In this document: piece by piece, positions 18,215 to 61,491 of the stretch
Position numbering within the stretch: position 1 is the stretch's first letter
Layout of the letters: each line of letters begins with the position of its first letter
DNA from: Holothuria scabra
Lineage: Eukaryota > Echinodermata > Holothuroidea > Aspidochirotida > Holothuriidae
Length of the DNA: 64,000 nucleotides
Direction: 5' to 3'
NCBI GenBank assembly: GCA_037179385.1
Contig: CM074179.1
Span: forward strand, 4,278,001 to 4,342,000
Position numbers and translations under genes: made by a program
The notes under the pieces: model-generated
The model's database searches: none
Told to the model about the DNA's origin: nothing
The model's input: only the letters and a program-made list of their open reading frames with translations

Positions 18215-18227
18215 AACATATAATTAT

Positions 18228-18364: not shown

Positions 18365-18399
18365 GTGCAGCAAACATAACTTAAATTTTTGAACCTAAA

Positions 18400-40508: not shown

Positions 40509-40695
40509 ATCGCTTCTCGGCCTTTTGGCTAAGATCATGTGTAGTATCTGTTCTTTTCAGCTTAATATCTGAAACGCGACTCATCGAGTCGCTTGTATAT
40601 TAAACTGATTTTTGCCACTGGGCTATGGAATAGGAGCTTGCTCCGTCCTAGCCACAGGTTGGCCCGGTCTTGCACTACCTCCGGGATTCGGCCCA
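40509..40695 (+). ncRNA. U2: U2 snRNA, unit 32
   Basis: G148A in a second-subfamily background. Confidence 0.97.
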
Positions 40696-41231
40696 CTCCC
40701 TTCGGGGAGAATATATAATTATGTAAAAACAAGAAATTCCTCAGCTTAGTTAGCAAGTGAGTGACCTGTCAATCACTGCATCCAGGTTCAAAGGGCATTT
40801 CGAATAGTTCACCCCCCCGCGAAAACATCCTTAATCGCTTTTTTTCATCTTTGCAGGTGCAGAAAACATAACTTAAATTTTTGAACCTAAATGACGTCAC
40901 GACTTTCAAGGCCTCAACCAATCAGAGTACGCCATTGAAATTCAGGCGGTATGTTTAACGAACAGATAGCTGCAGTAAAATTCGGCTGGAATTCTGAACC
41001 AGATATTTTGTTTCACCGGGAAGCAATGCTTTATTCACGAAGTTGCCCACAGAGCGGACTTGGAAACCGTTAAATTTGCATTTAGGCAACGAAATACGGG
41101 GTAAGTTGAATAAAATGTATTATTTAGGAGGCTGAACGATAGTAATCGATCATTAATAGAGGGCGGTTTTGATTTCGTTCATAAGTTTGGGATTAAAAAG
41201 AGGCATTTTTTGCATGGCCCCTTTAATCGGT

Positions 41232-41418
41232 ATCGCTTCTCGGCCTTTTGGCTAAGATCATGTGTAGTATCTGTTCTTTTCAGCTTAATATCTGAAACGC
41301 GACTCATCGAGTCGCTTGTATATTAAACTGATTTTTGCCACTGGGCTATGGAATAGGAGCTTGCTCCGTCCTAGCCACAGGTTGGCCCGGTCTTGCACTA
41401 CCTCCGGGATTCGGCCCA
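41232..41418 (+). ncRNA. U2: U2 snRNA, unit 33
   Basis: G148A. Upstream flank with a 4-G run (ACGGGGTAAG), as seen before unit 18. Confidence 0.97.
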
Positions 41419-41954
41419 CTCCCTTCGGGGAGAATATATAATTATGTAAAAACAAGAAATTCCTCAGCTTAGTTAGCAAGTGAGTGACCTGTCAATCACT
41501 GCATCCAGGTTCAAAGGGCATTTCGAATAGTTCACCCCCCCGCGAAAACATCCTTAATCGCTTTTTTTCATCTTTGCAGGTGCAGAAAACATAACTTAAA
41601 TTTTTGAACCTAAATGACGTCACGACTTTCAAGGCCTCAACCAATCAGAGTACGCCATTGAAATTCAGGCGGTATGTTTAACGAACAGATAGCTGCAGTA
41701 AAATTCGGCTGGAATTCTGAACCAGATATTTTGTTTCACCGGGAAGCAATGCTTTATTCACGAAGTTGCCCACAGAGCGGACTTGGAAACCGTTAAATTT
41801 GCATTTAGGCAACGAAATACGGGGGTAAGTTGAATAAAATGTATTATTTAGGAGGCTGAACGATAGTAATCGATCATTAATAGAGGGCGGTTTTGATTTC
41901 GTTCATAAGTTTGGGATTAAAAAGAGGCATTTTTGCATGGCCCCTTTAATCGGT

Positions 41955-42141
41955 ATCGCTTCTCGGCCTTTTGGCTAAGATCATGTGTAGTATCTGTTCT
42001 TTTCAGCTTAATATCTGAAACGCGACTCATCGAGTCGCTTGTATATTAAACTGATTTTTGCCACTGGGCTATGGAATAGGAGCTTGCTCCGTCCTAGCCA
42101 CCGGTTGTCCCGGTCTTGCACTACCTCCGGGATTCGGCCCA
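41955..42141 (+). ncRNA. U2: U2 snRNA, unit 34
   Basis: G148C and G154T (CCACCGGTTGTCCCGG), just outside stem IV. Confidence 0.96.
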
Positions 42142-42678
42142 CTCCCTTCGGGGAGAATATATAATTATGTAAAAACAAGAAATTCCTCAGCTTAGTTAGC
42201 AAGTGAGTGACCTGTCAATCACTGCATCCAGGTTCAAAGGGCATTTCGAATAGTTCACCCCCCCGCGAAAACATCCTTAATCGCTTTTTTTCATCTTTGC
42301 AGGTGCAGAAAACATAACTTAAATTTTTGAACCTAAATGACGTCACGACTTTCAAGGCCTCAACCAATCAGAGTACGCCATTGAAATTCAGGCGGTATGT
42401 TTAACGAACAGATAGCTGCAGTAAAATTCGGCTGGAATTCTGAACCAGATATTTTGTTTCACCGGGAAGCAATGCTTTATTCACGAAGTTGCCCACAGAG
42501 CGGACTTGGAAACCGTTAAATTTGCATTTAGGCAACGAAATACGGGGGTAAGTTGAATAAAATGTATTATTTAGGAGGCTGAACGATAGTAATCGATCAT
42601 TAATAGAGGGCGGTTTTGATTTCGTTCATAAGTTTGGGATTAAAAAGAGGCATTTTTTGCATGGCCCCTTTAATCGGT

Positions 42679-42865
42679 ATCGCTTCTCGGCCTTTTGGCT
42701 AAGATCATGTGTAGTATCTGTTCTTTTCAGCTTAATATCTGAAACGCGACTCATCGAGTCGCTTGTATATTAAACTGATTTTTGCCACTGGGCTATGGAA
42801 TAGGAGCTTGCTCCGTCCTAGCCACGGGTTGGCCCGGTCTTGCACTACCTCCGGGATTCGGCCCA
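42679..42865 (+). ncRNA. U2: U2 snRNA, unit 35
   Basis: G at nt 148; consensus RNA. Long C run (13 C) follows. Confidence 0.97.
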
Positions 42866-43407
42866 CTCCCTTCGGGGAGAATATATAATTATGTAAAAAC
42901 AAGAAATTCCTCAGCTTAGTTAGCAAGTGAGTGACCTGTCAATCACTGCATCCAGGTTCAAAGGGCATTTCGAATAGTTCACCCCCCCCCCCCCCGCGAA
43001 AACATCCTTAATCGCTTTTTTTCATCTTTGCAGGTGCAGAAAACATAACTTAAATTTTTGAACCTAAATGACGTCACGACTTTCAAGGCCTCAACCAATC
43101 AGAGTACGCCATTGAAATTCAGGCGGTATGTTTAACGAACAGATAGCTGCAGTAAAATTCGGCTGGAATTCTGAACCAGATATTTTGTTTCACCGGGAAG
43201 CAATGCTTTATTCACGAAGTTGCCCACAGAGCGGACTTGGAAACCGTTAAATTTGCATTTAGGCAACGAAATACGGGGGTAAGTTGAATAAAATGTATTA
43301 TTTAGGAGGCTGAACGATAGTAATCGATCATTAATAGAGGGCGGTTTTGATTTCGTTCATAAGTTTGGGATTAAAAGAGGCATTTTTGCATGGCCCCTTT
43401 AATCGGT

Positions 43408-43594
43408 ATCGCTTCTCGGCCTTTTGGCTAAGATCATGTGTAGTATCTGTTCTTTTCAGCTTAATATCTGAAACGCGACTCATCGAGTCGCTTGTATATT
43501 AAACTGATTTTTGCCACTGGGCTATGGAATAGGAGCTTGCTCCGTCCTAGCCACAGGTTGGCCCGGTCTTGCACTACCTCCGGGATTCGGCCCA
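43408..43594 (+). ncRNA. U2: U2 snRNA, unit 36
   Basis: G148A. The upstream flank has ATTAAAAGAGG (one A fewer). Confidence 0.97.
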
Positions 43595-44131
43595 CTCCCT
43601 TCGGGGAGAATATATAATTATGTAAAAACAAGAAATTCCTCAGCTTAGTTAGCAAGTGAGTGACCTGTCAATCACTGCATCCAGGTTCAAAGGGCATTTC
43701 GAATAGTTCACCCCCCCCGCGAAAACATCCTTAATCGCTTTTTTCATCTTTGCAGGTGCAGAAAACATAACTTAAATTTTTGAACCTAAATGACGTCACG
43801 ACTTTCAAGGCCTCAACCAATCAGAGTACGCCATTGAAATTCAGGCGGTATGTTTAACGAACAGATAGCTGCAGTAAAATTCGGCTGGAATTCTGAACCA
43901 GATATTTTGTTTCACCGGGAAGCAATGCTTTATTCACGAAGTTGCCCACAGAGCGGACTTGGAAACCGTTAAATTTGCATTTAGGCAACGAAATACGGGG
44001 GTAAGTTGAATAAAATGTATTATTTAGGAGGCTGAACGATAGTAATCGATCATTAATAGAGGGCGGTTTTGATTTCGTTCATAAGTTTGGGATTAAAAAG
44101 AGGCATTCTTTGCATGGCCCCTTTAATCGGT

Positions 44132-44318
44132 ATCGCTTCTCGGCCTTTTGGCTAAGATCATGTGTAGTATCTGTTCTTTTCAGCTTAATATCTGAAACGC
44201 GACTCATCGAGTCGCTTGTATATTAAACTGATTTTTGCCACTGGGCTATGGAATAGGAGCTTGCTCCGTCCTAGCCACGGGTTGGCCCGGTCTTGCACTA
44301 CCTCCGGGATTCGGCCCA
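44132..44318 (+). ncRNA. U2: U2 snRNA, unit 37
   Basis: G at nt 148. The upstream flank has GCATTCTTTGCAT (one T to C). Confidence 0.97.
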
Positions 44319-44860
44319 CTCCCTTCGGGGAGAATATATAATTATGTAAAAACAAGAAATTCCTCAGCTTAGTTAGCAAGTGAGTGACCTGTCAATCACT
44401 GCATCCAGGTTCAAAGGGCATTTCGAATAGTTCACCCCCCCCCCCCGCGAAAACATCCTTAATCGCTTTTTTTCATCTTTGCAGGTGCAGAAAACATAAC
44501 TTAAATTTTTGAACCTAAATGACGTCACGACTTTCAAGGCCTCAACCAATCAGAGTACGCCATTGAAATTCAGGCGGTATGTTTAACGAACAGATAGCTG
44601 CAGTAAAATTCGGCTGGAATTCTGAACCAGATATTTTGTTTCACCGGGAAGCAATGCTTTATTCACGAAGTTGCCCACAGAGCGGACTTGGAAACCGTTA
44701 AATTTGCATTTAGGCAACGAAATACGGGGGTAAGTTGAATAAAATGTATTATTTAGGAGGCTGAACGATAGTAATCGATCATTAATAGAGGGCGGTTTTG
44801 ATTTCGTTCATAAGTTTGGGATTAAAAAGAGGCATTTTTTGCATGGCCCCTTTAATCGGT

Positions 44861-45047
44861 ATCGCTTCTCGGCCTTTTGGCTAAGATCATGTGTAGTATC
44901 TGTTCTTTTCAGCTTAATATCTGAAACGCGACTCATCGAGTCGCTTGTATATTAAACTGATTTTTGCCACTGGGCTATGGAATAGGAGCTTGCTCCGTCC
45001 TAGCCACGGGTTGGCCCGGTCTTGCACTACCTCCGGGATTCGGCCCA
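44861..45047 (+). ncRNA. U2: U2 snRNA, unit 38
   Basis: G at nt 148; consensus RNA and hairpin. Confidence 0.97.
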
Positions 45048-45586
45048 CTCCCTTCGGGGAGAATATATAATTATGTAAAAACAAGAAATTCCTCAGCTTA
45101 GTTAGCAAGTGAGTGACCTGTCAATCACTGCATCCAGGTTCAAAGGGCATTTCGAATAGTTCACCCCCCCGCGAAAACATCCTTAATCGCTTTTTTTCAT
45201 CTTTGCAGGTGCAGAAAACATAACTTAAATTTTTGAACCTAAATGACGTCACGACTTTCAAGGCCTCAACCAATCAGAGTACGCCATTGAAATTCAGGCG
45301 GTATGTTTAACGAACAGATAGCTGCAGTAAAATTCGGCTGGAATTCTGAACCAGATATTTTGAAGTGCACCGGGAAGCAATGCTTTATTCACGAAGTTGC
45401 CCACAGAGCGGACTTGGAAACCGTTAAATTTGCATTTAGGCAACGAAATACGGGGGTAAGTTGAATAAAATGTATTATTTAGGAGGCTGAACGATAGTAA
45501 TCGATCATTAATAGAGGGCGGTTTTGATTTCGTTCATAAGTTTGGGATTAAAAAGAGGCATTTTTTGCATGGCCCCTTTAATCGGT

Positions 45587-45773
45587 ATCGCTTCTCGGCC
45601 TTTTGGCTAAGATCATGTGTAGTATCTGTTCTTTTCAGCTTAATATCTGAAACGCGACTCATCGAGTCGCTTGTATATTAAACTGATTTTTGCCACTGGG
45701 CTATGGAATAGGAGCTTGCTCCGTCCTAGCCACGGGTTGGCCCGGTCTTGCACTACCTCCGGGATTCGGCCCA
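45587..45773 (+). ncRNA. U2: U2 snRNA, unit 39
   Basis: Consensus RNA; hairpin arm CTCGC instead of CTCCC. Its upstream flank has TTTTGAAGTGCACCGGG instead of TTTTGTTTCACCGGG (45359-45375), at the same motif where the array begins at 17793. Confidence 0.97.
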
Positions 45774-46316
45774 CTCGCTTCGGGGAGAATATATAATTAT
45801 GTAAAAACAAGAAATTCCTCAGCTTAGTTAGCAAGTGAGTGACCTGTCAATCACTGCATCCAGGTTCAAAGGGCATTTCGAATAGTTCACCCCCCCCCCC
45901 CCGCGAAAACATCCTTAATCGCTTTTTTTCATCTTTGCAGGTGCAGAAAACATAACTTAAATTTTTGAACCTAAATGACGTCACGACTTTCAAGGCCTCA
46001 ACCAATCAGAGTACGCCATTGAAATTCAGGCGGTATGTTTAACGAACAGATAGCTGCAGTAAAATTCGGCTGGAATTCTGAACCAGATATTTTGTTTCAC
46101 CGGGAAGCAATGCTTTATTCACGAAGTTGCCCACAGAGCGGACTTGGAAACCGTTAAATTTGCATTTAGGCAACGAAATACGGGGGTAAGTTGAATAAAA
46201 TGTATTATTTAGGAGGCTGAACGATAGTAATCGATCATTAATAGAGGGCGGTTTTGATTTCGTTCATAAGTTTGGGATTAAAAAGAGGCATTTTTTGCAT
46301 GGCCCCTTTAATCGGT

Positions 46317-46503
46317 ATCGCTTCTCGGCCTTTTGGCTAAGATCATGTGTAGTATCTGTTCTTTTCAGCTTAATATCTGAAACGCGACTCATCGAGTCGC
46401 TTGTATATTAAACTGATTTTTGCCACTGGGCTATGGAATAGGAGCTTGCTCCGTCCTAGCCACGGGTTGGCCCGGTCTTGCACTACCTCCGGGATTCGGC
46501 CCA
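46317..46503 (+). ncRNA. U2: U2 snRNA, unit 40
   Basis: G at nt 148; consensus RNA and hairpin. Confidence 0.97.
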
Positions 46504-47044
46504 CTCCCTTCGGGGAGAATATATAATTATGTAAAAACAAGAAATTCCTCAGCTTAGTTAGCAAGTGAGTGACCTGTCAATCACTGCATCCAGGTTCAAA
46601 GGGCATTTCGAATAGTTCACCCCCCCCCCCCGCGAAAACATCCTTAATCGCTTTTTTTCATCTTTGCAGGTGCAGAAAACATAACTTAAATTTTTGAACC
46701 TAAATGACGTCACGACTTTCAAGGCCTCAACCAATCAGAGTACGCCATTGAAATTCAGGCGGTATGTTTAACGAACAGATAGCTGCAGTAAAATTCGGCT
46801 GGAATTCTGAACCAGATATTTTGTTTCACCGGGAAGCAATGCTTTATTCACGAAGTTGCCCACAGAGCGGACTTGGAAACCGTTAAATTTGCATTTAGGC
46901 AACGAAATACGGGGGTAAGTTGAATAAAATGTATTATTTAGGAGGCTGAACGATAGTAATCGATCATTAATAGAGGGCGGTTTTGATTTCGTTCATAAGT
47001 TTGGGATTAAAAAGAGGCATTTTTGCATGGCCCCTTTAATCGGT

Positions 47045-47231
47045 ATCGCTTCTCGGCCTTTTGGCTAAGATCATGTGTAGTATCTGTTCTTTTCAGCTTA
47101 ATATCTGAAACGCGACTCATCGAGTCGCTTGTATATTAAACTGATTTTTGCCACTGGGCTATGGAATAGGAGCTTGCTCCGTCCTAGCCACGGGTTGGCC
47201 CGGTCTTGCACTACCTCCGGGATTCGGCCCA
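47045..47231 (+). ncRNA. U2: U2 snRNA, unit 41 (last uninterrupted)
   Basis: Consensus RNA. The spacer after it is a hybrid: left part like units 31-40, right part (from about 47620) like the retrotransposon-bearing units. Its C run is interrupted by a T (CACCCTCCCGCG). Confidence 0.97.
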
Positions 47232-47770
47232 CTCCCTTCGGGGAGAATATATAATTATGTAAAAACAAGAAATTCCTCAGCTTAGTTAGCAAGTGAGTGA
47301 CCTGTCAATCACTGCATCCAGGTTCAAAGGGCATTTCGAATAGTTCACCCTCCCGCGAAAACATCCTTAATCGCTTTTTTTCATCTTTGCAGGTGCAGAA
47401 AACATAACTTAAATTTTTGAACCTAAATGACGTCACGACTTTCAAGGCCTCAACCAATCAGAGTACGCCATTGAAATTCAGGCGGTATGTTTAACGAACA
47501 GATAGCTGCAGTAAAATTCGGCTGGAATTCTGAACCAGATATTTTGTTTCACCGGGAAGCAATGCTTTATTCACGAAGTTGCCCACAGAGCGGACTTGGA
47601 AACCGTTAAATTTGCATTTAGACAACGAAATACGGGGGTAAGTTGAATAAAATGTATTATTTAGGGACCTGAACGATAGTAATCGATCATTAATAGAGGG
47701 CGGTTTTGATTTCGTTCATAAGTTTGGGATTAAAAAAAAAGGCATTTTTTGCATGGCCCCTTTAATCGGT

Positions 47771-47799
47771 ATCGCTTCTCGGCCTTTTGGCTAAGATCA
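47771..47799 (+). pseudogene. U2: U2 5' part (nt 1-29), split by the element, copy 1
   Basis: The first 29 nt of U2 with stem I, preceded by an intact U2 promoter region. It ends at AAGATCA, where the retrotransposon starts. The next base is A, which would also match an ancestral A30. The gene cannot give a functional U2. Confidence 0.95.
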
Positions 47800-47850
47800 A
47801 CACGTTCTCATAGCGCTCTCGACTTTTGTCGATTTTACTCATTTTTCATT

Positions 47851-49332
47851 ATGGATTCGCCTCTTTATCGAGTTAGTACCGTTCAGGTCACAGTTGAAGA
47901 TAGTTTTGAAGATTTTAAAGTGTTTGAATTCCTAAAATCGAAAGGAATATCGCCGAAAGAACATTTGGTCGCCGTCCAGGCTCTTCCCGGACACTCCTTT
48001 GACGTTACGTTCAAATCAGAGAGTTTGTGTAGACAGTTCTACCCTAAGCTACATGAAAGCGTTGGTATTGTTGTTCATAGTTATGGTGACCTCGCCACTA
48101 TCGTTAATGTATTGCATGTGCCGCATGAATTGGACAATAACGTTGTGAAATACGTGCTAGGCCGCTACGGGAAAGTAATGGGCAGTAGATACAAAACGCA
48201 CAAGGACTTTCCAGAAATTTTTAACGGGATACGGCAGTACAAAGTGATTTTGGAAAAACACATCCCCTCCTCACTGAAGTTCGGGGGTCGGGAATGTTGG
48301 GTCAGGTATTACAACCAGCCGCAGACGTGCCTTAAATGTGGAAAAGAGGGCCATCTTGCCAGAGATTGCCAAGACATCCGTTGTTTTAAATGCCTTAAGT
48401 TGGGACATTCAGCCCGAGATTGCCAGAATGATATTTTGTGTTCACTATGTAATACGTCAGGACACGGGTTTCGTGACTGCCCAATTTCCTTTGCGAACAA
48501 AGCCAGACCCGCTTCGTCCCGCTGGGCAGGGGATGGGGCACCCGTCCTCAGTGTGGTCTCTGTCTCACCCCCTCCCGCCCTTTCGGAGAAGGATGACAAC
48601 TCCAGCCCAGCACAAGTGGAGAGTGTACTAGGAGAAAGTATGGAGGTTGGCCTTTTCCCTGAAAACCTGACTCTAATTGAGGACCAGGACGCCACGGCTT
48701 TGCAATTAGATGAGGAGGCTGGTAAGAGCGACTGTGAAGGGATTGGTGGCAGCCTCAGAAGCCTCTTCAGCCCAGCGGAAGAGAGTAGTTCTTCTACTAC
48801 TCCCCCCGAGGATTCACAGGAAGACGGGCAACGGATTCCAGAAACCCCCACCCCTAGCGGGACCGCTATCCAAGTGCTTGCCGACGTCCACGTCGAACCC
48901 ATTACCATCCAGGATAACCCGGCTGCTGTGGAATCTGTTAGTCTCTCTGGTTCCAGAGGTCTGAAACGCTCTGCTTCACCCTCCAGCTCCCAGCCGCCGA
49001 GGGGACAGACGTCAGGATCGCGCCTTTCAGTTAAAATACAACGGGCGAAGGATTTAGTCTCCAAGTCGCAGATTTTTAACGAGACACAACCGTGGTTTTC
49101 ATGCGAAGTTGAACAATGCAAGCAAATCTTTAAACATCACAAAGACTTTGTTCAGCATATGGTAAGCTCACATGAAGGACTTAAACCGATGAGGGTGGCC
49201 TGTCCCACCAAAGGCTGCAGGGTCACCTGCAATAACCCCAGAGAATGGGCCTCGCACCTAGCGGCGAAACATCCTGACTTTGTCTTGCATCATGAGGTAG
49301 TGTTTTTTGACAAATATTTTGTAAATGAATAA
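47851..49332 (+). CDS. Retrotransposon ORF1 (nucleic-acid-binding protein), copy 1, intact
   Basis: A 493-residue protein starting MDSPLYRV. Residues 1-155 are RRM-like by pattern (two repeated strand-rich segments), as in Tx1-group ORF1 proteins. Three CCHC zinc knuckles follow at 160-173, 178-191 and 197-210 (CX2CX4HX4C). A Ser/Pro-rich linker leads to two C-terminal C2H2 fingers, C418-C423-H436-H441 and C451-C456-H469-H474, both CX4CX12HX4H. Its expected role is to coat element RNA; the C2H2 pair may add DNA binding (inference). The frame stays open upstream to an ATG at 47749 through U2 sequence, but copy 3 has a stop there, so the start at 47851 is preferred. The stop overlaps the ORF2 start. 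Confidence 0.92.
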   Translation: MDSPLYRVSTVQVTVEDSFEDFKVFEFLKSKGISPKEHLVAVQALPGHSFDVTFKSESLCRQFYPKLHESVGIVVHSYGDLATIVNVLHVPHELDNNVVKYVLGRYGKVMGSRYKTHKDFPEIFNGIRQYKVILEKHIPSSLKFGGRECWVRYYNQPQTCLKCGKEGHLARDCQDIRCFKCLKLGHSARDCQNDILCSLCNTSGHGFRDCPISFANKARPASSRWAGDGAPVLSVVSVSPPPALSEKDDNSSPAQVESVLGESMEVGLFPENLTLIEDQDATALQLDEEAGKSDCEGIGGSLRSLFSPAEESSSSTTPPEDSQEDGQRIPETPTPSGTAIQVLADVHVEPITIQDNPAAVESVSLSGSRGLKRSASPSSSQPPRGQTSGSRLSVKIQRAKDLVSKSQIFNETQPWFSCEVEQCKQIFKHHKDFVQHMVSSHEGLKPMRVACPTKGCRVTCNNPREWASHLAAKHPDFVLHHEVVFFDKYFVNE

Positions 49333-49334
49333 TG
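49330..49334 (+). promoter_or_regulatory. UAAUG stop-start junction between ORF1 and ORF2, copy 1
   Basis: TAA ending ORF1 shares its last A with the ATG of ORF2. A UAAUG overlap is known to allow translational coupling in the silkworm element SART1; here coupling is inferred. The same junction is found at 55410-55414 and 61489-61493. Confidence 0.8.
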
Positions 49335-52300
49335 GGTTTGTCATTGTTTTCCATTTATTGTATTTCGAGCAGCCTTCTTTTATCAATTTGTTTAAACATG
49401 TTTTTCCTTACCTCTATTAACGTAAACGGTCTCAGAGACCCCCAGAAGTGCTCCCGCGTTATGCAATGGTGTAAGATTTTTCAATGTGACATTGTGTTTC
49501 TCCAGGAGCTTCACTTATCAACTAAGAAGGATATCGATAGACTACGCAACGTCTGGGGTGGGCAGCTAGTGGTTTCGCCAAGCCCCTCCTCTCTTTCTGC
49601 CGGGGTGGGAATTGCCTTCTCCCCTCGCCTTAACTGTGTGGTCTCACAGATCAATTGTGATAACTCTGGCAGGATTGTTTCCGTTCTTTGTACTATGCAA
49701 GCTGGGGTTTCTCTTCGTTTATGTAATGTCTATGCCCCAAATTCACCTCGAGATCGGAAATGTTTCTTTGAGTCGTTGCACAGTTATTTAAGGGGGGCAG
49801 AGCCTGTCATCCTGGCGGGCGACTTTAATTGTATTAGTTCAGAAATTGACCGCTCAGGTGATTCAAAGAATACTACTTGTTTCGTGGGTAGTGGGGAACT
49901 CACTGATATCTTACAGGGTAGGAGTTTGATCGATTGCTGGAGAAGTATTTACCCCCTCCACGCGGGCCACACCTGGTTCCACGAGGGAAAAGGGCAAAGC
50001 TCCAGGCTAGATAGGATTTATGCACCTAAGAGTATGGTTTGTGATAAGATTCAAGTGCTACGTTTTCCCCTCTCAGATCACCGGGCCGTGAGGGCGAGCA
50101 TTAAATTACCGAGTATTGTTTCTGGGAAAGGCAAAGGCCTGTGGAAATGCAACGTCTCTGTGTTACACAATTCCGAATTTATTAATGATTTCACTTATCT
50201 CTACCCGCTATGGCGTACTTTACAACCTGGGTTCGACGCTCTCCCCATTTGGTGGGACGAAATCAAACGGCGAATTAAGCAGCTGATCATTAAACATAGT
50301 GTTCGCATAGCAAAGCATAAGAGAGACCGCCTATCTGCATTACAAACGCTTTGCTTGGATTCAGACAAGGCTGAATTCGAGAAAATCACCGATGAACAGA
50401 AGAAAGGAGCTTTTATTCGCTCCAGAGAAAAGTACTTGGAGGAAGGGGAACGCCCTTCAGCCTACTTCTTCAGGCAAGAACGCAGTCGAGCCGAAAGCAA
50501 CCATATTAGTACAATTCGCCTTCCAAATGGGGAGACTGCTTCGGACACAGAAAGCATTCTCATGGTCTTTCAAAATTTTTACAGTAAACTGTTTGCTAAA
50601 GCAAATAATACCGATGCTAAAAGCCAAAACGTGTTTCTTGATCGATTAGAGAGTGAAATTACGGAAGACGCAAGGGAGCAATTAAACCGGCCGCTAGAGC
50701 TCTCTGAATTAAGGAGAGCTGTGGCAGCTTTGGCACGCAATCGTACCCCGGGAGTGGATGGCCTTCCAGCCGAATTTTATGACCAGTTCTTTCATATTGT
50801 TGGGGAAGACCTTTTAGAAGTTTACAACGCTGTTTTTTCGACTGGTCATTTGTCTGCCACGCAGCGAAGCGGTGTCATCACACTGCTGCCAAAAAGCGGT
50901 GACCTTCTAAACCCAGTTAACAGACGGCCTATTACACTGCTAACGGCAGACTATAAGGTTATAGCTAAAGTTTTGCAGATGAGGCTTACCGCAGCTCTCC
51001 CGAGCGTAATTAGTGAATTCCAAACTTGTTCGGTTCCGGGAAGGTCGATTCACCAAAATTTAAGTATTTTGAGAGATGTGATAGACTATAGCCGCTTAAA
51101 GAATCTAGCATGCTCTGTTATTTCTTTTGACCAAGAGAAAGCTTTCGATAAAGTCGATTGGTCGTTTTTGTTTAAAGTCTTACGTAAATTTAATCTTGGT
51201 GACACGTTTTGTAATTGGGTTAAGATTCTGTACACCAACATTACTAGTAACATTCTGATTAACGGTCATTTATCTAGCGAGGTCACGATTGAGAGAGGGG
51301 TGCGACAAGGGTGCCCCCTCTCACCCGCTTTGTACATTCTTTTTATAGAACCTTTTGTCAGGTATGTTTTGAACAGTAAGAATATTGGTGGACTTTCGTT
51401 ACCAGGGGGTGGGGCGACATCAATCAAGTTATTGCTATATGCAGACGACGTGACCTGTGTCGCTACTTCACAAAGGGACATAGTAGGGTATATTCAGGCC
51501 TTCGCCGATTTTGGTAAAGCCACCGGCACCAACATCAACATGTCTAAAACATGTGGGCTGAGACTGGGGTCCTTCGTAGGGCGCCGACTAAAGGGTGATT
51601 TCAACTGGAACGATAGGACGATTAAGATCAACGGCATCCAATTTGGCACAGACAATGCGGTGAAAGAAAATTGGACTTCTGCTTTAGCAAAAGCCGAAAG
51701 AAAACTGGCTGCCTGGAAAAGTAGGCACTTGACCCTTTCAGGCAAGGTGACCCTTCTGAACACTTGCCTTTACCCCTTGTTTTACTTCCTTGCACCGGTT
51801 TTTCCGGCCCCGGACAAAGTCATTCGTGACCTCAATTCTGCCGTTTTTGGTTTTATCTGGTCGGGTAAAACTGAACTAGTGTCAAGGAGGGTGGTGTGCT
51901 TAAGTAAGTTAGATGGGGGCCTGGGTCTTGACTGTTTCGAAGAAAAGATGTGTTCTTTGTTAATACGGCCGATTATCCCGGCCTTGAGCGGCGAGCCTGA
52001 TCGCGCTTATCTGTTATTCATAAGGTATTTTATTGCATGTCGTATGAGGCGGCTCTTCCCCTCCCTCTGGTCTAATTCCAGACCAAATTGTTACTCCTGC
52101 ACCCCCACTCTTGAGGTCGCCTGCACCACCCTTTTTCGTCTCCATGAAAAGGATGAGGATTTTTTATTAGGGACCAGGTCTACCAGGGATTTGGTACAGA
52201 TCCTTCGCCAGGGAGGTACAAGGCCGTCTGCTGAAGCCAAGCGACCGGGTCTGCCTTGGGGGGACATTTGGAAGGCCGTGTTTAACCTTTATTTAGATCA

Positions 52301-52676
52301 GCGACTGATTGAGTTTTCGTGGAAGACAGCCCACAATGTCTTGGCTACTGGGGAAATTTTGAAGAGATGGAATTTGACCGGAGGGAGGTGTAGAGCCGAA
52401 GGCTGTGGCAAGTTGGAAACTATGGTCCACGTGTTTTGGGAGTGCTCCCGCACTTACAATTTACTTCTTTGGGTTCACGCAGCGGCGAGGAACTTGCTAG
52501 GGGATTCTTTCGACTTTACCCCCACGCTCTTCATCTTTGGTGTCCCCTACCCCAAAGTCTCAAGCTGGGTGTTTGGGAGGGTATGGTTCCTTTTGTGGTG
52601 TCCAGGAACGTTATGTGGAAATCCCGGTGTATACACATGTACGAGGGCAGGGTTGTGGGTATCCACGAGATCATAA
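49332..52676 (+). CDS. Retrotransposon ORF2 (AP endonuclease-reverse transcriptase), copy 1, C-terminal frameshift
   Basis: 1114 residues as read. AP endonuclease at about 24-258: SINVNG, LQE (E59), NVYAPN, AGDFN (D164, N166), RLDRIY (D227) and SDH (D249-H250). Reverse transcriptase from about 515: LPKSGD, RRPITLL, SFDQEKAFDKVDW (D600), GVRQGCPLSP and YADD (703-706). A CX4CX7HX4C knuckle lies at 1020-1038, as in L1/Tx1 proteins. The role is to nick the U2 target and copy element RNA onto it. Near residue 1086 (about 52587-52600) the conserved continuation (VVSRNVMWKSR) moves to another frame, open to 52867, so one base seems lost. Copy 2 has the same break. The first 22 residues before the nuclease are hydrophobic, an effect of the UAAUG start. 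Confidence 0.92.
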   Translation: MGLSLFSIYCISSSLLLSICLNMFFLTSINVNGLRDPQKCSRVMQWCKIFQCDIVFLQELHLSTKKDIDRLRNVWGGQLVVSPSPSSLSAGVGIAFSPRLNCVVSQINCDNSGRIVSVLCTMQAGVSLRLCNVYAPNSPRDRKCFFESLHSYLRGAEPVILAGDFNCISSEIDRSGDSKNTTCFVGSGELTDILQGRSLIDCWRSIYPLHAGHTWFHEGKGQSSRLDRIYAPKSMVCDKIQVLRFPLSDHRAVRASIKLPSIVSGKGKGLWKCNVSVLHNSEFINDFTYLYPLWRTLQPGFDALPIWWDEIKRRIKQLIIKHSVRIAKHKRDRLSALQTLCLDSDKAEFEKITDEQKKGAFIRSREKYLEEGERPSAYFFRQERSRAESNHISTIRLPNGETASDTESILMVFQNFYSKLFAKANNTDAKSQNVFLDRLESEITEDAREQLNRPLELSELRRAVAALARNRTPGVDGLPAEFYDQFFHIVGEDLLEVYNAVFSTGHLSATQRSGVITLLPKSGDLLNPVNRRPITLLTADYKVIAKVLQMRLTAALPSVISEFQTCSVPGRSIHQNLSILRDVIDYSRLKNLACSVISFDQEKAFDKVDWSFLFKVLRKFNLGDTFCNWVKILYTNITSNILINGHLSSEVTIERGVRQGCPLSPALYILFIEPFVRYVLNSKNIGGLSLPGGGATSIKLLLYADDVTCVATSQRDIVGYIQAFADFGKATGTNINMSKTCGLRLGSFVGRRLKGDFNWNDRTIKINGIQFGTDNAVKENWTSALAKAERKLAAWKSRHLTLSGKVTLLNTCLYPLFYFLAPVFPAPDKVIRDLNSAVFGFIWSGKTELVSRRVVCLSKLDGGLGLDCFEEKMCSLLIRPIIPALSGEPDRAYLLFIRYFIACRMRRLFPSLWSNSRPNCYSCTPTLEVACTTLFRLHEKDEDFLLGTRSTRDLVQILRQGGTRPSAEAKRPGLPWGDIWKAVFNLYLDQRLIEFSWKTAHNVLATGEILKRWNLTGGRCRAEGCGKLETMVHVFWECSRTYNLLLWVHAAARNLLGDSFDFTPTLFIFGVPYPKVSSWVFGRVWFLLWCPGTLCGNPGVYTCTRAGLWVSTRS

Positions 52677-52867
52677 AGTGGATCTGCCGGGAGGTCACAG
52701 ACAGGGTCACGGCGGATTTCCGCCGCTTCCCGAGGGCTAAGTTTTTGAAGATGTGGGTTATGGGCAAATCTTTCGTGTCCGTGGTTAACGACGGCCTGAT
52801 TTTTCTTTGCCGAAGACCTAGCTCTCGGCTTCCCAGTTTGTACATAGGTCACTTGTATACCCTATAG

Positions 52868-53165
52868 TTTATGTCCATTCGTACCCAAACGGTGACGGTC
52901 CAGTGCAGGTTCACTTGTATTATCATGATTATCAGCTTCCATCAATTTAATTATACCCGCTTTGTTTTTACATCCAACGAGTTAATTTGAAGTGAACGCT
53001 TGCGTCCTCTACAAGCAATTTAGTTTTTTTTCTGTACTTTAGGTAACGGCTAATTTGTTCCGCATTACATGCTTAGCCTACTTACTTTCTTTTCCCTTTT
53101 CGTTTGTATTTTTTGTACGTATTTTATATAACAAGTCATTCAAAGTGTAAATAAATTGAAAGAAA
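52868..53165 (+). other. Retrotransposon 3' UTR, copy 1
   Basis: About 298 nt of AT-rich sequence after the last open frame, without coding capacity. It holds the poly-A signal at 53150-53155 and ends in TTGAAAGAAA, directly joined to U2 nt 35. The same UTR, with few changes, ends copy 2. Confidence 0.8.
53150..53155 (+). terminator. Poly-A signal AATAAA at the element 3' end, copy 1
   Basis: Lies only about 10 nt before the 3' junction, so cleavage would fall near or inside the following U2 part. In copy 2 it is at 59227-59232. Confidence 0.5.
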
Positions 53166-53317
53166 AGTATCTGTTCTTTCAGCTTAATATCTGAAACGCG
53201 ACTCATCGAGTCGCTTGTATATTAAACTGATTTTTGCCACTGGGCTATGGAATAGGAGCTTGCTCCGTCCTAGCCACGGGTTGGCCCGGTCTTGCACTAC
53301 CTCCGGGATTCGGCCCA
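53166..53317 (+). pseudogene. U2: U2 3' part (nt 35 to end), behind copy 1
   Basis: Starts AGTATCTG, lacking U2 nt 1-34 and so most of the branch-recognition element. One T is missing in the TTCTTTTCAGC tract. It keeps the Sm site, stems IIb to IV and a downstream 3' box, but has no U2 promoter next to it. The hairpin after it is reduced (ACTTTCGGGGAG). Confidence 0.93.
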
Positions 53318-53852
53318 CTTTCGGGGAGAATATAAAATTATGTAAAAACAAGAAATTCCTCAGCTTAGTTAGCAAGTGAGTGACCTGTCAATCACTGCAT
53401 CCAGGTTCAAAGGGCATTTCGAACAGTTCACCCCCCCCGCAAAAACGTCCTTAATCGCTTTATTTCATCTTTGCAGGTGCAGCACACATAACTTAAATTT
53501 TTGAATCTGAATGACGTCACGACTTTCAAGGCCTCAACCAATCAAAGTACGCCATTGAAATTCAGGCGGTATGTTTAACGAACAGATAGCTGCAGTAAAA
53601 TTCGGCTGGAATTCTAAGCCAGATATTTTGTTTCACCGGGAAGCAATGCTTTATTCACGAAGTTGCCCACAGAGCGGACTTGGAAACCGTTAAATTTGCA
53701 TTTAGACAACGAAATACGGGGGTAAGTTGAATAAAATGTATTATTTAGGGACCTGAACGATAGTAATCGATCATTAATAGAGGGCGGTTTTGATTTCGTT
53801 CATAAGTTTGGGATTAAAAAGAGGCATTTTTTGCATGGCCCCTTTAATCGGT
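53318..53852 (+). other. U2 spacer of the composite unit, between copies 1 and 2
   Basis: Corresponds to the spacer of the plain units but with the private variants listed for the composite block. It retains the octamer ATTTGCAT, the TGACGTCA and CCAAT motifs (with ATCAAAGT for ATCAGAGT) and the upstream promoter region. Confidence 0.85.
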
Positions 53853-53881
53853 ATCGCTTCTCGGCCTTTTGGCTAAAATCA
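53853..53881 (+). pseudogene. U2: U2 5' part (nt 1-29), split, copy 2
   Basis: Same break as copy 1. It carries G25A (CTAAAATCA), a change at a normally invariant position, consistent with loss of function. Confidence 0.94.
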
Positions 53882-53932
53882 ACACGTTCTCATAGTGCTC
53901 TCGACTTTTGTCGATTTTACTCATTTTTCATT

Positions 53933-55412
53933 ATGGATTCGCCTCTTTATCGAGTTAGTACCGTTCAGGTCACAGTTGAAGATAGTTTTGAAGATTTTAA
54001 AGTGTTTGAATTCCTAAAATCGAAAGGAATATCGCCGAAAGAACATTTGGTCGCCGTCCAGGCTCTTCCCGGACACTCCTTTGACGTTACGTTCAAATCA
54101 GAGAGTTTGTGTAGACAGTTCTACCCTAAGCTACATGAAAGCGTTGGTATTGTTGTTCATAGTTATGGTGACCTCGCCACTATCGTTAATGTATTGCATG
54201 TGCCGCATGAATTGGACAATAACGTTGTGAAATACGTGCTAGGCCGCTACGGGAAAGTAATGGGCAGTAGATACAAAACGCACAAGGACTTTCCAGAAAT
54301 TTTTAACGGGATACGGCAGTACAAAGTGATTTTGGAAAAACACATCCCCTCCTCACTGAAGTTCGGGGGTCGGGAATGTTGGGTCAGGTATTACAACCAG
54401 CCGCAGACGTGCCTTAAATGTGGAAAAGAGGGCCATCTTGCCAGAGATTGCCAAGACATCCGTTGTTTTAAATGCCTTAAGTTGGGACATTCAGCCCGAG
54501 ATTGCCAGAATGATATTTTGTGTTCACTATGTAATACGTCAGGACACGGGTTTCGTGATTGCCCAATTTCCTTTGCGAACAAAGCCAGACCCGCTTCGTC
54601 CCGCTGGGCAGGGGATGGGGCACCCGTCCTCAGTGTGGTCTCTGTCTCACCCCTCCCGCCCTTTCGGAGAAGGATGACAACTCCAGCCCAGCACAAGTGG
54701 AGAGTGTACTAGGAGAAAGTATGGAGGTTGGCCTTTTCCCTGAAAACCTGACTCTAATTGAGGACCAGGACGCCACGGCTTTGCAATTAGATGAGGAGGC
54801 TGGTAAGAGCGACTGTGAAGGGATTGGTGGCAGCCTCAGAAGCCTCTTCAGCCCAGCGGAAGAGAGTAGTTCTTCTACTACTCCCCCCGAGGATTCACAG
54901 GAAGACGGGCAACGGATTCCAGAAACCCCACCCCTAGCGGGACCGCTATCCAAGTGCTTGCCGACGTCCACGTCGAACCCATTACCATCCAGGGTAACCC
55001 GGCTGCTGTGGAATCTGTTAGTCTCTCTGGTTCCAGAGGTCTGAAACGCTCTGCTTCACCCTCCAGCTCCCAGCCGCCGAGGGGACAGACGTCAGGATCG
55101 CGCCTTTCAGTTAAAATACAACGGGCGAAGGATTTAGTCTCCAAGTCGCAGATTTTTAACGAGACACAACCGTGGTTTTCATGCGAAGTTGAACAATGCA
55201 AGCAAATCTTTAAACATCACAAAGACTTTGTTCAGCATATGGTAAGCTCACATGAAGGACTTAAACCGATGAGGGTGGCCTGTCCCACCAAAGGCTGCAG
55301 GGTCACCTGCAATAACCCCAGAGAATGGGCCTCGCACCTAGCGGCGAAACATCCTGACTTTGTCTTGCATCATGAGGTAGTGTTTTTTGACAAATATTTT
55401 GTAAATGAATAA
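53933..55412 (+). pseudogene. Retrotransposon ORF1, copy 2, frameshifted
   Basis: Nearly identical to copy 1 ORF1, with all three CCHC knuckles intact in the first frame. One C is missing in the run at 54650-54653 (four where copy 1 has five), so the frame stops at 54712. A second C is missing at 54926-54929. The rest continues in other frames, and the C2H2 fingers are encoded within 54954-55412. The breaks are in homopolymers, so assembly error is possible. Confidence 0.88.
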
Positions 55413-58400
55413 TGGGTTTGTCATTGTTTTCCATTTATTGTATTTCGAGCAGCCTTCTTTTATCAATTTGTTTAAACATGTTTTTCCTTACCTCTATTAA
55501 CGTAAACGGTCTCAGAGACCCCCAGAAGTGCTCCCGCGTTATGCAATGGTGTAAGATTTTTCAATGTGACATTGTGTTTCTCCAGGAGCTTCACTTATCA
55601 ACTAAGAAGGATATCGATAGACTACGCAACGTCTGGGGTGGGCAGCTAGTGGTTTCGCCAAGCCCCTCCTCTCTTTCTGCCGGGGTGGGAATTGCCTTCT
55701 CCCCTCGCCTTAACTGTGTGGTCTCACAGATCAATTGTGATAACTCTGGCAGGATTGTTTCCGTTCTCTGTACTATGCAAGCTGGGGTTTCTCTTCGTTT
55801 ATGTAATGTCTATGCCCCAAATTCACCTCGAGACCGGAAATGTTTCTTTGAGTCGTTGCACAGTTATTTAAGGGGGGCAGAGCCTGTCATCCTGGCGGGC
55901 GACTTTAATTGTATTAGTTCAGAAATTGACCGCTCAGGTGATTCAAAGAATACTACTTGTTTCGTGGGTAGTGGGGAACTCACTGATATCTTACAGGGTA
56001 GGAGTTTGATCGATTGCTGGAGAAGTATTTACCCCCTCCACGCGGGCCACACCTGGTTCCACGAGGGAAAAGGGCAAAGCTCCAGGCTAGATAGGATTTA
56101 TGCACCTAAGAGTATGGTTTGTGATAAGATTCAAGTGCTACGTTTTCCCCTCTCAGATCATCGGGCTGTGAGGGCGAGCATTAAATTACCGAGTATTGTT
56201 TCTGGGAAAGGCAAAGGCCTGTGGAAATGCAACGTCTCTGTGTTACACAATTCCGAATTTATTAATGATTTCACTTATCTCTACCCGCTATGGCGTACTT
56301 TACAACCTGGGTTCGACGCTCTCCCCATTTGGTGGGACGAAATCAAACGGCGAATTAAGCAGCTGATCATTAAACATAGTGTTCGCATAGCAAAGCATAA
56401 GAGAGACCGCCTATCTGCATTACAAACGCTTTGCTTGGATTCAGACAAGGCTGAATTCGAGAAAATCACCGATGAACAGAAGAAAGGAGCTTTTATTCGC
56501 TCCAGAGAAAAGTACTTGGAGGAAGGGGAACGCCCTTCAGCCTACTTCTTCAGGCAAGAACGCAGTCGAGCCGAAAGCAACCATATTAGTACAATTCGCC
56601 TTCCAAATGGGGAGACTGCTTCGGACACAGAAAGCATTCTCATGGTCTTTCAAAATTTTTACAGTAAACTGTTTGCTAAAGCAAATAATACCGATGCTAA
56701 AAGCCAAAACGTGTTTCTTGATCGATTAGAGAGTGAAATTACGGAAGACGCAAGGGAGCAATTAAACCGGCCGCTAGAGCTCTCTGAATTAAGGAGAGCT
56801 GTGGCAGCTTTGGCACGCAATCGTACCCCGGGAGTGGATGGCCTTCCAGCCGAATTTTATGACCAGTTCTTTCATATTGTTGGGGAAGACCTTTTAGAAG
56901 TTTACAACGCTGTTTTTTCGACTGGTCATTTGTCTGCCACGCAGCGAAGCGGTGTCATCACCCTGCTGCCAAAAAGCGGTGACCTTCTAAACCCAGTTAA
57001 CAGACGGCCTATTACACTGCTAACGGCAGACTATAAGGTTATAGCTAAAGTTTTGCAGATGAGGCTTACCGCAGCTCTCCCGAGCGTAATTAGTGAATTC
57101 CAAACTTGTTCGGTTCCGGGAAGGTCGATTCACCAAAATTTAAGTATTTTGAGAGATGTGATAGACTATAGCCGCTTAAAGAATCTAGCATGCTCTGTTA
57201 TTTCTTTTGACCAAGAGAAAGCTTTCGATAAAGTCGATTGGTCGTTTTTGTTTAAAGTCTTACGTAAATTTAATCTTGGTGACACGTTTTGTAATTGGGT
57301 TAAGATTCTGTACACCAACATTACTAGTAACATTCTGATTAACGGTCATTTATCTAGCGAGGTCACGATTGAGAGAGGGGTGCGACAAGGGTGCCCCCTC
57401 TCACCCGCTTTGTACATTCTTTTTATAGAACCTTTTGTCAGGTATGTTTTGAACAGTAAGAATATTGGTGGACTTTCGTTACCAGGGGGTGGGGCGACAT
57501 CAATCAAGTTATTGCTATATGCAGACGACGTGACCTGTGTCGCTACTTCACAAAGGGACATAGTAGGGTATATTCAGGCCTTCGCCGATTTTGGTAAAGC
57601 CACCGGCACCAACATCAACATGTCTAAAACATGTGGGCTGAGACTGGGGTCCTTCGTAGGGCGCCGACTAAAGGGTGATTTCAACTGGAACGATAGGACG
57701 ATTAAGATCAACGGCATCCAATTTGGCACAGACAATGCGGTGAAAGAAAATTGGACTTCTGCTTTAGCAAAAGCCGAAAGAAAACTGGCTGCCTGGAAAA
57801 GTAGGCACTTGACCCTTTCAGGCAAGGTGACCCTTCTGAACACTTGCCTTTACCCCTTGTTTTACTTCCTTGCACCGGTTTTTCCGGCCCCGGACAAAGT
57901 CATTCGTGACCTCAATTCTGCCGTTTTTGGTTTTATCTGGTCGGGTAAAACTGAACTAGTGTCAAGGAGGGTGGTGTGCTTAAGTAAGTTAGATGGGGGC
58001 CTGGGTCTTGACTGTTTCGAAGAAAAGATGTGTTCTTTGTTAATACGGCCGATTATCCCGGCCTTGAGCGGCGAGCCTGATCGCGCTTATCTGTTATTCA
58101 TAAGGTATTTTATTGCATGTCGTATGAGGCGGCTCTTCCCCTCCCTCTGGTCTAATTCCAGACCAAATTGTTACTCCTGCACCCCCACTCTTGAGGTCGC
58201 CTGCACCACCCTTTTTCGTCTCCATGAAAAGGATGAGGATTTTTATTAGGGACCAGGTCTACCAGGGATTTGGTACAGATCCTTCGCCAGGGGGTACAAG
58301 GCCGTCTGCTGAAGCCAAGCGACCGGGTCTGCCTTGGGGGACATTTGGAAGGCCGTGTTTAACCTTTATTTAGATCAGCGACTGATTGAGTTTTCGTGGA

Positions 58401-58899
58401 AGACAGCCCACAATGTCTTGGCTACTGGGGAAATTTTGAAGAGATGGAATTTGACCGGAGGGAGGTGTAGAGCCGAAGGCTGTGGCAAGTTGGAAACTAT
58501 GGTCCACGTGTTTTGGGAGTGCTCCCGCACTTACAATTTACTTCTTTGGGTTCACGCAGCGGCGAGGAACTTGCTAGGGGATTCTTTCGACTTTACCCCC
58601 ACGCTCTTCATCTTTGGTGTCCCCTACCCCAAAGTCTCAAGCTGGGTGTTTGGGAGGGTATGGTTCCTTTTGTGGTGTCCAGGAACGTTATGTGGAAATC
58701 CCGGTGTATACACATGTACGAGGGCAGGGTTGTGGGTATCCACGAGATCATAAAGTGGATCTGCCGGGAGGTCACAGACAGGGTCACGGCGGATTTCCGC
58801 CGCTTCCCGAGGGCTAAGTTTTTGAAGATGTGGGTTATGGGCAAATCTTTCGTGTCCGTGGTTAACGACGGCCTGATTTTTTCTTTGCCGAAGACCTAG
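55412..58899 (+). pseudogene. Retrotransposon ORF2, copy 2, frameshifted
   Basis: AP endonuclease and reverse transcriptase are intact to residue 944, then the frame stops at 58249. Three single-base losses relative to copy 1 lie within 100 bp: a T at 58240-58244, a base at 58290-58294 and a G at 58336-58340. They cancel, and the original frame resumes near 58334 with the CCHC knuckle. It then meets the same C-terminal frameshift as copy 1, and the conserved tail runs in another frame to 58899. That tail ends differently from copy 1 because one T run near 58876 is longer. Confidence 0.88.
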
Positions 58900-59242
58900 C
58901 TCTCGGCTTCCCAGTTTGTACATAGGTCACTTGTATACCCTATAGTTTATGTCCATTCGTACCCAAACGGTGACGGTCCAGTGCAGGTTCACTTGTATTA
59001 TCATGATTATCAGCTTCCATCAATTTAATTATACCCGCTTTGTTTTTACATCCAACGAGTTAATTTGAAGTGAACGCTTGCGTCCTCTACAAGCAATTTA
59101 GTTTTTTTTCTGTACTTTAGGTAACGGCCAATTTGTTCCGCATTACATGCTTAGCCTACTTACTTTCTTTTCCTTTTCCTTTGTATTTTTTGTACGTATT
59201 TTATATAACAAGTCATTGAAAGTGTAAATAAATTGAAAGAAA
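58900..59242 (+). other. Retrotransposon 3' UTR, copy 2
   Basis: Matches the copy 1 UTR, with AATAAA at 59227-59232. It has TCATTGAAAG where copy 1 has TCATTCAAAG and a few other substitutions. Confidence 0.8.
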
Positions 59243-59395
59243 AGTATCTGTTCTTTTCAGCTTAATATCTGAAACGCGACTCATCGAGTCGCTTGTATAT
59301 TAAACTGATTTTTGCCACTGGGCTATGGAATAGGAGCTTGCTCCGTCCTAGCCACGGGTTGGCCCGGTCTTGCACTACCTCCGGGATTCGGCCCA
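59243..59395 (+). pseudogene. U2: U2 3' part (nt 35 to end), behind copy 2
   Basis: Same junction as behind copy 1, here with the full TTCTTTTCAGC tract and the standard CTCCC-UUCG-GGGAG hairpin. The 3'-flank variant GAATATAAAATT is shared with the part at 53166 and absent from the plain array. Confidence 0.94.
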
Positions 59396-59931
59396 CTCCC
59401 TTCGGGGAGAATATAAAATTATGTAAAAACAAGAAATTCCTCAGCTTAGTTAGCAAGTGAGTGACCTGTCAATCACTGCATCCAGGTTCAAAGGGCATTT
59501 CGAACAGTTCACCCCCCGCAAAAACGTCCTTAATCGCTTTATTTCATCTTTGCAGGTGCAGCACACATAACTTAAATTTTTGAATCTGAATGACGTCACG
59601 ACTTTCAAGGCCTCAACCAATCAAAGTACGCCATTGAAATTCAGGCGGTATGTTTAACGAACAGATAGCTGCAGTAAAATTCGGCTGGAATTCTAAGCCA
59701 GATATTTTGTTTCACCGGGAAGCAATGCTTTATTCACGAAGTTGCCCACAGAGCGGACTTGGAAACCGTTAAATTTGCATTTAGACAACGAAATACGGGG
59801 GTAAGTTGAATAAAATGTATTATTTAGGGACCTGAACGATAGTAATCGATCATTAATAGAGGGCGGTTTTGATTTCGTTCATAAGTTTGGGATTAAAAAG
59901 AGGCATTTTTTGCATGGCCCCTTTAATCGGT
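59396..59931 (+). other. U2 spacer of the composite unit, between copies 2 and 3
   Basis: Carries the same private variants as 53318-53852 and differs mainly in the C-run length (CACCCCCCGC here). Confidence 0.85.
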
Positions 59932-59960
59932 ATCGCTTCTCGGCCTTTTGGCTAAGATCA
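59932..59960 (+). pseudogene. U2: U2 5' part (nt 1-29), split, copy 3
   Basis: Same break as copies 1 and 2, without the G25A of copy 2. Confidence 0.94.
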
Positions 59961-60011
59961 ACACGTTTTCATAGCGCTCTCGACTTTTGTCGATTTTAGT
60001 CATTTTTCATT

Positions 60012-61491
60012 ATGGATTCGCCTCTTTATCGAGTTAGTACCGTTCAGGTCACAGTTGAAGATAGTTTTGAAGATTTTAAAGTGTTTGAATTCCTAAAATC
60101 GAAAGGAATATCGCCGAAAGAACATTTGGTCGCCGTCCAGGCTCTTCCCGGACACTCCTTTGACGTTACGTTCAAATCAGAGAGTTTGTGTAGACAGTTC
60201 TACCCTAAGCTACATGAAAGCGTTGGTATTGTTGTTCATAGTTATGGTGACCTCGCCACTATCGTTAATGTATTGCATGTGCCGCATGAATTGGACAATA
60301 ACGTTGTGAAATACGTGCTAGGCCGCTACGGGAAAGTAATGGGCAGTAGATACAAAACGCACAAGGACTTTCCAGAAATTTTTAACGGGATACGGCAGTA
60401 CAAAGTGATTTTGGAAAAACACATCCCCTCCTCACTGAAGTTCGGGGGTCGGGAATGTTGGGTCAGGTATTACAACCAGCCGCAGACGTGCCTTAAATGT
60501 GGAAAAGAGGGCCATCTTGCCAGAGATTGCCAAGACATCCGTTGTTTTAAATGCCTTAAGTTGGGACATTCAGCCCGAGATTGCCAGAATGATATTTTGT
60601 GTTCACTATGTAATACGTCAGGACACGGGTTTCGTGACTGCCCAATTTCCTTTGCGAACAAAGCCAGACCCGCTTCGTCCCGCTGGGCAGGGGATGGGGC
60701 ACCCGTCCTCAGTGTGGTCTCTGTCTCACCCTCCCGCCCTTTCGGAGAAGGATGACAACTCCAGCCCAGCACAAGTGGAGAGTGTACTAGGAGAAAGTAT
60801 GGAGGTTGGCCTTTTCCCTGAAAACCTGACTCTAATTGAGGACCAGGACGCCACGGCTTTGCAATTAGATGAGGAGGCTGGTAAGAGCGACTGTGAAGGG
60901 ATTGGTGGCAGCCTCAGAAGCCTCTTCAGCCCAGCGGAAGAGAGTAGTTCTTCTACTACTCCCCCCGAGGATTCACAGGAAGACGGGCAACGGATTCCAG
61001 AAACCCCCACCCCTAGCGGGACCGCTATCCAAGTGCTTGCCGACGTCCACGTCGAACCCATTACCATCCAGGGTAACCCGGCTGCTGTGGAATCTGTTAG
61101 TCTCTCTGGTTCCAGAGGTCTGAAACGCTCTGCTTCACCCTCCAGCTCCCAGCCGCCGAGGGGACAGACGTCAGGATCGCGCCTTTCAGTTAAAATACAA
61201 CGGGCGAAGGATTTAGTCTCCAAGTCGCAGATTTTTAACGAGACACAACCGTGGTTTTCATGCGAAGTTGAACAATGCAAGCAAATCTTTAAACATCACA
61301 AAGACTTTGTTCAGCATATGGTAAGCTCACATGAAGGACTTAAACCGATGAGGGTGGCCTGTCCTACCAAAGGCTGCAGGGTCACCTGCAATAACCCCAG
61401 AGAATGGGCCTCGCACCTAGCGGCGAAACATCCTGACTTTGTCTTGCATCATGAGGTAGTGTTTTTTGACAAATATTTTGTAAATGAATAA
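60012..61491 (+). pseudogene. Retrotransposon ORF1, copy 3, frameshifted
   Basis: Starts MDSPLYRV with intact CCHC knuckles. Two C are missing at 60729-60731 (three where copy 1 has five), giving a stop at 60755. The remainder, including the C2H2 fingers, is open in the frame that ends at 61491. No other break was seen. Confidence 0.88.

Follow-up and report, generated by a model that had tools for sequence, protein, structure and literature searches.

An array of U2 snRNA genes with three split members

The window, i.e. the whole stretch of 64,000 nucleotides of sea cucumber DNA analysed here, contains 43 matches to the Rfam U2 model (RF00004; cmscan, whole window), all on the + strand and comprising 41 intact genes and 2 matches that bridge an insertion (Table 1). 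The intact units show a start-to-start spacing of 722–733 bp. Three split units stand after the 41 intact genes, with start-to-start spacings of 6082 and 6079 bp. A sequence-only reading of this DNA had claimed that U2 genes are interrupted here by a retrotransposon; this was found to be correct, as was its placement of the first split gene from 47771 to about 53323. A six-frame Pfam scan of positions 1–18002, run in 12 pieces, returned a single match, to SPC12, which scored under its cut-off.

Table 1 Features of the U2 array and of the inserted element in the window.
Feature	Position	Strand	Evidence
Tandem array, 41 intact U2 snRNA genes with spacers	18014..47237	+	cmscan RF00004, 177-187 bits each
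U2 nt 1-29, 5' part of split gene 1	47771..47799	+	direct reading
Element copy 1, 5367 bp	47800..53166	+	U2 junctions at both ends
ORF1 of copy 1, 493 aa, zinc knuckles (CCHC)	47851..49332	+	PF00098 E 1.5e-10
ORF2 of copy 1 (open frame of 1114 aa) with AP endonuclease and reverse transcriptase	49332..52676	+	PF03372 E 4.9e-16, RVT_1 E 4e-37
U2 nt 36 to 3' end, split gene 1	53167..53323	+	cmscan 53092-53323; GTATCTG at 53167
Unit downstream of copy 1, bearing 9 private shared substitutions	53167..53881	+	unit comparison
U2 nt 1-29, split gene 2 (one substitution, AAGATCA to AAAATCA)	53853..53881	+	sequence reading
Element copy 2, 5362 bp, small indels in both ORFs	53882..59243	+	sequence comparison
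U2 nt 36 to 3' end, split gene 2	59244..59401	+	cmscan 59169-59401
Unit downstream of copy 2, bearing the same 9 substitutions	59244..59960	+	unit comparison
U2 nt 1-29, split gene 3	59932..59960	+	sequence reading
Element copy 3, runs to window end, small indels in both ORFs	59961..64000	+	sequence comparison

All three 5' halves end on U2 base A29, followed by ACACG; at the nt-29 position the intact genes read TGTGTAGTATCTG (41 of 41). Behind copies 1 and 2 the tail GAAAGAAAA runs without a gap into GTATCTG (two of two, copy 3 ending at the window edge), and U2 restarts there at G36, or at A35 if the final tail A is assigned to U2. The loss to U2 amounts to 5-6 bp, nt 30-34 (TGTGT) or nt 30-35 (TGTGTA). 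U2 is continuous from nt 35/36 onwards in both cases, and the letters GTA could in principle be tail sequence. The junctions with U2 exceed chance.

The branch-site recognition element GUAGUA, which we take to occupy U2 nt 33-38, has with this numbering lost its first two or three letters in the split genes, confirming the earlier claim that its start is removed. It had also been proposed that all three copies break U2 at nt 29 and nt 35. This holds on the 5' side for all three and on the 3' side, at nt 35/36, for the two in which that side is visible, but the copies do not stand as independent events, given the spacer variants that they share (see below).

Structure of the inserted element

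The insert is a non-LTR retrotransposon of ~5.36 kb. Two ORFs, the first with CCHC knuckles and the second with an AP endonuclease (APE) and a reverse transcriptase, form the typical layout of the Tx1 clade, and this layout is present here. The AP endonuclease claimed from the sequence was indeed recovered by Pfam (PF03372) at residues 28-250 of ORF2, while the zf-RVT match in the same protein falls slightly below its cut-off (25.5 vs 27.5 bits) and no restriction-type endonuclease domain was reported by Pfam in ORF2. The best solved relatives of ORF2 are human L1 ORF2 (E 1.5e-83).

A leader of 51 nt precedes ORF1, whose ATG is the first downstream of U2 +1, and the ORF1 stop and ORF2 start overlap as TAATG in all three copies. 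According to tblastn with four relatives, the C-terminal homology of ORF2 switches frame near 52595 (copy 1) and near 58672 (copy 2), a frameshift common to both copies. Both ORFs are clearly whole in no copy within the window. The copies seen bear frameshifts and may therefore be inactive.

One insertion or several

Across 5362 aligned bases, 12 substitutions and 7 single-base indels separate copy 1 from copy 2, and copy 3 differs from each of them by 10 substitutions over about 4040 bases (both counts include U2 A29). The copies are thus 99.75-99.78% identical, with some of the small indels located in single-base runs. To judge the number of events, we compared all 43 complete units over the stretch that begins at U2 nt 36 and ends at nt 29 of the following U2. 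The unit behind copy 1 is separated from that behind copy 2 by 1 substitution (and 3 gaps); every intact unit is at least 15 substitutions away from the former and at least 14 from the latter. The two units have 9 substitutions in common that occur in none of the 41 intact units; a tenth shared variant (column 170) is also present in 12 of the 41. Four more variants, all to the right of the nine, recur in a single intact unit: u41, a mosaic, which directly precedes copy 1. Such a mosaic is as expected at the left end of a block produced by unequal exchange, and gene conversion may be an alternative source.

Because of the nine private substitutions and the shared ORF2 frameshift, a single insertion amplified as a 6.08-kb composite unit is by far the best reading of these sequences. 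One event in the window makes the three copies n=1 for target choice. Target specificity is therefore not provable from the window alone; it rests on the second element described below and on the literature.

A second U2 element in a bivalve-associated contig

A pattern scan of genome contigs with the U2 core pattern gave three stretches on two contigs. One contig (L002/L003) bears intact U2. The other, JAHXIV010000038.1 (L001), derives from a symbiont MAG of Taylorina sp., a lucinid bivalve genus. On its - strand, L001 encodes an ORF of 917 aa, cut at the contig end, with matches to RVT_1 (E 2.5e-39) and zf-RVT (E 1.7e-8). The ORF is followed by an A-rich tail, by GTATCTGTTCTTATCAG and by the remaining U2 (Rfam 129.9 bits). 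To our knowledge bacteria have no U2, and the contig is therefore presumably clam DNA within the MAG. The endonuclease region of the ORF falls beyond the contig end; relatives at 65-71% identity (e.g. P0076, P0077, P0080) carry PF03372. A second U2 5' half lies ~1.8 kb further on and stops at the contig end as GATCAAA, the usual U2 reading GATCAAG, a weak difference of one letter.

The 3' U2 junction of L001 matches that of the window element: in both, an A-rich tail is followed by GTATCTG, and U2 nt 36-38 are retained. A comparison of the two 3' UTRs shows short matches only, the best being 13 bases in opposite orientation (E 0.003), and both tails have AAATAAATT near the end, containing the poly(A)-signal-like AATAAA. 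Tails that end in A-runs and are otherwise unlike would favour assigning GTA to U2 in both elements. L001 is a hint that U2 targeters of this broad type occur in protostomes as well. In viral contigs, three U2 patterns gave 0 matches, and no relatives of ORF2 were found among 41 pattern matches.

Relatives of the element

Nine of the 18 ORF1 relatives are named to species, and all nine are from sea cucumbers (6 Apostichopus japonicus, 3 Holothuria leucospilota), which bears out the earlier proposal of an echinoderm host. The nearest named sequence of the 46 ORF2 relatives is likewise from Holothuria leucospilota, with 48% identity over 67% of the query. A tree of 38 rows and 391 columns was built from the window element, L001, human L1, 26 of the 46 ORF2 relatives and 9 rows of a third protein search, the other 20 ORF2 relatives having been left out by manual choice and not by a set rule. 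In this tree the window element falls with P0001-P0004 (support 100/99), of which P0004 is from Holothuria leucospilota. L001 forms a group with P0076, P0077, P0080 and P0114, the last named as from a Sedimenticola MAG, with the same support (100/99) elsewhere in the tree. A set of 31 rows holds both elements and is separated from human L1 with moderate support (89/74); also outside it are three named fish rows, P0021 and the two rows of the green-plant lineage (Chara and Lotus).

The tree backbone is poorly resolved. A quick tree with all 46 ORF2 relatives recovered the window group (99) and placed L001 with P0009, P0010, P0011 and P0015 (95); two of these, P0009 and P0010, lie elsewhere in the 38-row tree. 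In AU tests, an exclusive union of the window and L001 groups (5+5 rows) was rejected (p 7.4e-6) and a wider union of 8+12 rows was not (p 0.163), a pair of results that decides nothing, both unions having been chosen with the tree already in view. None of the best 120 of 2483 matches of the third protein search is labelled Tx1 or Keno, and the 18 ORF1 and 46 ORF2 relatives include no labelled Tx1 row. The clade name Tx1/Keno should accordingly be read as a provisional one, taken from layout and target and not from labelled sequences.

Comparison with known U2 targeters

Elements reported to target U2 include Utopia, which has a restriction-like endonuclease (RLE), and Keno, which has an AP endonuclease (PMC4640811). 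U2 downstream of Utopia begins at nt 39, and the Keno 3' flank is described as identical (PMC4640811, the Keno site being given second-hand); the Keno 3' target is TCTGTTCTTATCAGTTTAAT (PMC6136364, site again second-hand). Compared by description, the window element resembles Keno, an APE-encoding element of the Tx1 clade, in its U2 target, its insertion in the GUAGUA region and its AP endonuclease. The resemblance in target choice claimed previously thus stands, with the same gene hit 3-4 nt from the reported site: the Keno flank runs from nt 39 (TCTG...), whereas U2 resumes at nt 35/36 behind the window element. The gap between nt 36 and nt 39 may be real, or may reflect tails that end in GTA.

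The hosts also differ, Keno being reported from frogs, fish, lancelet and hydra (PMC4640811) and the window element lying in a sea cucumber. Utopia shares with the window element the gene, nearly the same site, a location within U2 arrays (those of Phytophthora; PMC4640811) and echinoderm hosts, which include two sea urchins and a starfish (PMC4640811), but differs in its type of endonuclease. Among the titles and abstracts found by searches of the open-licence literature, none described a U2 element of the APE type from a sea cucumber or a bivalve; such entries may exist in Repbase. The suggestion that the locus extends the known range holds in that an AP-endonuclease element lies in a multi-gene U2 array, but the extension is modest with Keno and Utopia already spread as described.

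Weighing the explanations

We consider it very likely that a Keno-like APE non-LTR retrotransposon targeting U2 inserted once, and that unequal exchange then raised the resulting 6.08-kb composite of U2 and element to three copies or more. Three independent insertions at one U2 site, as the wording of the earlier reading implies, would account for the identical 5' break in all three copies, and U2-specific elements are known to strike one site repeatedly (PMC4640811). This explanation was rejected on the spacer variants and appears very improbable, since the units downstream of copies 1 and 2 are 1 substitution apart and at least 14 from intact units, and have in common the nine private substitutions and the ORF2 frameshift. 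It could be argued instead that a LINE without target preference fell into U2 a single time at random and was copied along with the array, as the window provides evidence for one insertion event only; L001, where a distantly related element shows an identical 3' junction, and the literature, in which an APE element with a U2 target is described (Keno), make this very unlikely.

An artefact of assembly, in which misassembled reads gave rise to the tandem block of composite units or to its indels, would be in keeping with the near identity of the copies and with small indels that lie partly in single-base runs. It is nevertheless hard to reconcile with the 10-12 substitutions that also separate the copies and with the mosaic u41, which is what real exchange would give, and we accord it little probability. 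The element could finally be thought to be Utopia itself, the RLE-type U2 element reported from sea urchins and a starfish, given the same gene and nearly the same site. The domain make-up led us to reject this identity, with an AP endonuclease domain at the ORF2 N-terminus instead of a restriction-like endonuclease, and with L1 ORF2 proteins as the nearest solved relatives; its probability is negligible.

Proposed mechanism

For the favoured single insertion by a U2-targeting element, we propose that the ORF2 endonuclease would nick the bottom strand near U2 nt 35/36, with ORF2 then reverse-transcribing from the nick on the A-rich end of the element RNA in a target-primed manner. The top strand would be cut upstream, after nt 29, and the 5-6 bp in between are lost, the order of the cuts being presumed. 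A top-strand cut upstream of the bottom-strand cut is described as leading to a deletion (PMC4640811).

Transcription of the element from the host U2 promoter is plausible because the leader is short (51 nt) and no ATG stands between U2 +1 and the start of ORF1. R2 is similarly a target-specific element in a tandem RNA gene array (28S rDNA), differing in its target and in being of the RLE type. It is considered to be transcribed together with the repeat that hosts it (PMC2881922), which resembles the proposal made here for the U2 element. ORF2 could be translated by reinitiation at the TAATG overlap. Reinitiation has reportedly been described for SART1. The split U2 genes would be unable to make normal U2, but with 41 intact genes alongside, the cost would stay small.

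Implications

The short leader, the stop-start overlap and the defined landing site would provide a clean case for endonuclease and reverse-transcription assays. Occurrence of a Keno-like element in an echinoderm is a modest extension of range. A broader reading, possible but in our estimate rather doubtful, is that APE-type U2 targeters form an old animal-wide set. It would comprise at least one lineage of echinoderm type and one of mollusc type, and its members would cut within GUAGUA near nt 35/36, which lies 3-4 nt upstream from the Keno/Utopia site. If true, the number of lineages that land on these few U2 bases, and of the exact positions they use, would exceed what has been reported. 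How retrotransposons persist despite hitting the low-copy, indispensable U2 has been named as a puzzle (PMC4640811), and the locus shows one route of persistence, in which an insertion is multiplied with the array unit while 41 intact genes stand alongside.

Variation within the U2 array and other features

Across their first 187 nt, 26 of the 41 intact U2 genes are identical, and over the same span nt 148 is variable in 14 of the 41. All 41 carry T at nt 30; A, presumably the usual U2 base at this position, is found in the U2 copies of L001 (JAHXIV010000038.1) and L003, an intact copy on another contig.

Features of the window and of L001
Feature	Coordinates	Strand	Match
SPC12 (signal peptidase 12 kDa subunit)	2015-2128	-	sub-cut-off, E 0.0013
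TACAG pentanucleotide microsatellite, ~45 copies	6893-7120		
Open frame	7292-7546	-	
Intact U2 array	18014-47237	+	
ORF1	47851-49332		PF23057, sub-cut-off, E 7.2e-5
Contig L001, with LINE and U2 sequence	1-5340		

The weak SPC12 match is possibly a single exon of a host gene. The open frame, which includes a 14-letter protein stretch followed further on by LQRVQN, resembles the end of a CR1/jockey-type RT and would be a LINE fragment of a different kind.

L001 is filed under the MAG of a bacterial symbiont of Taylorina sp. Since its LINE and U2 snRNA sequence is eukaryotic, the contig is probably host (clam) DNA. A similar case may be P0114, a protein that groups with L001 in the RT tree and whose record assigns it to a Sedimenticola MAG.

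PF23057 in ORF1 represents the first RNA-binding domain of ZCCHC3. Sea cucumber and lancelet relatives carry the annotation ZCCHC3 or ZCCHC3-like; these proteins may be LINE ORF1 proteins.
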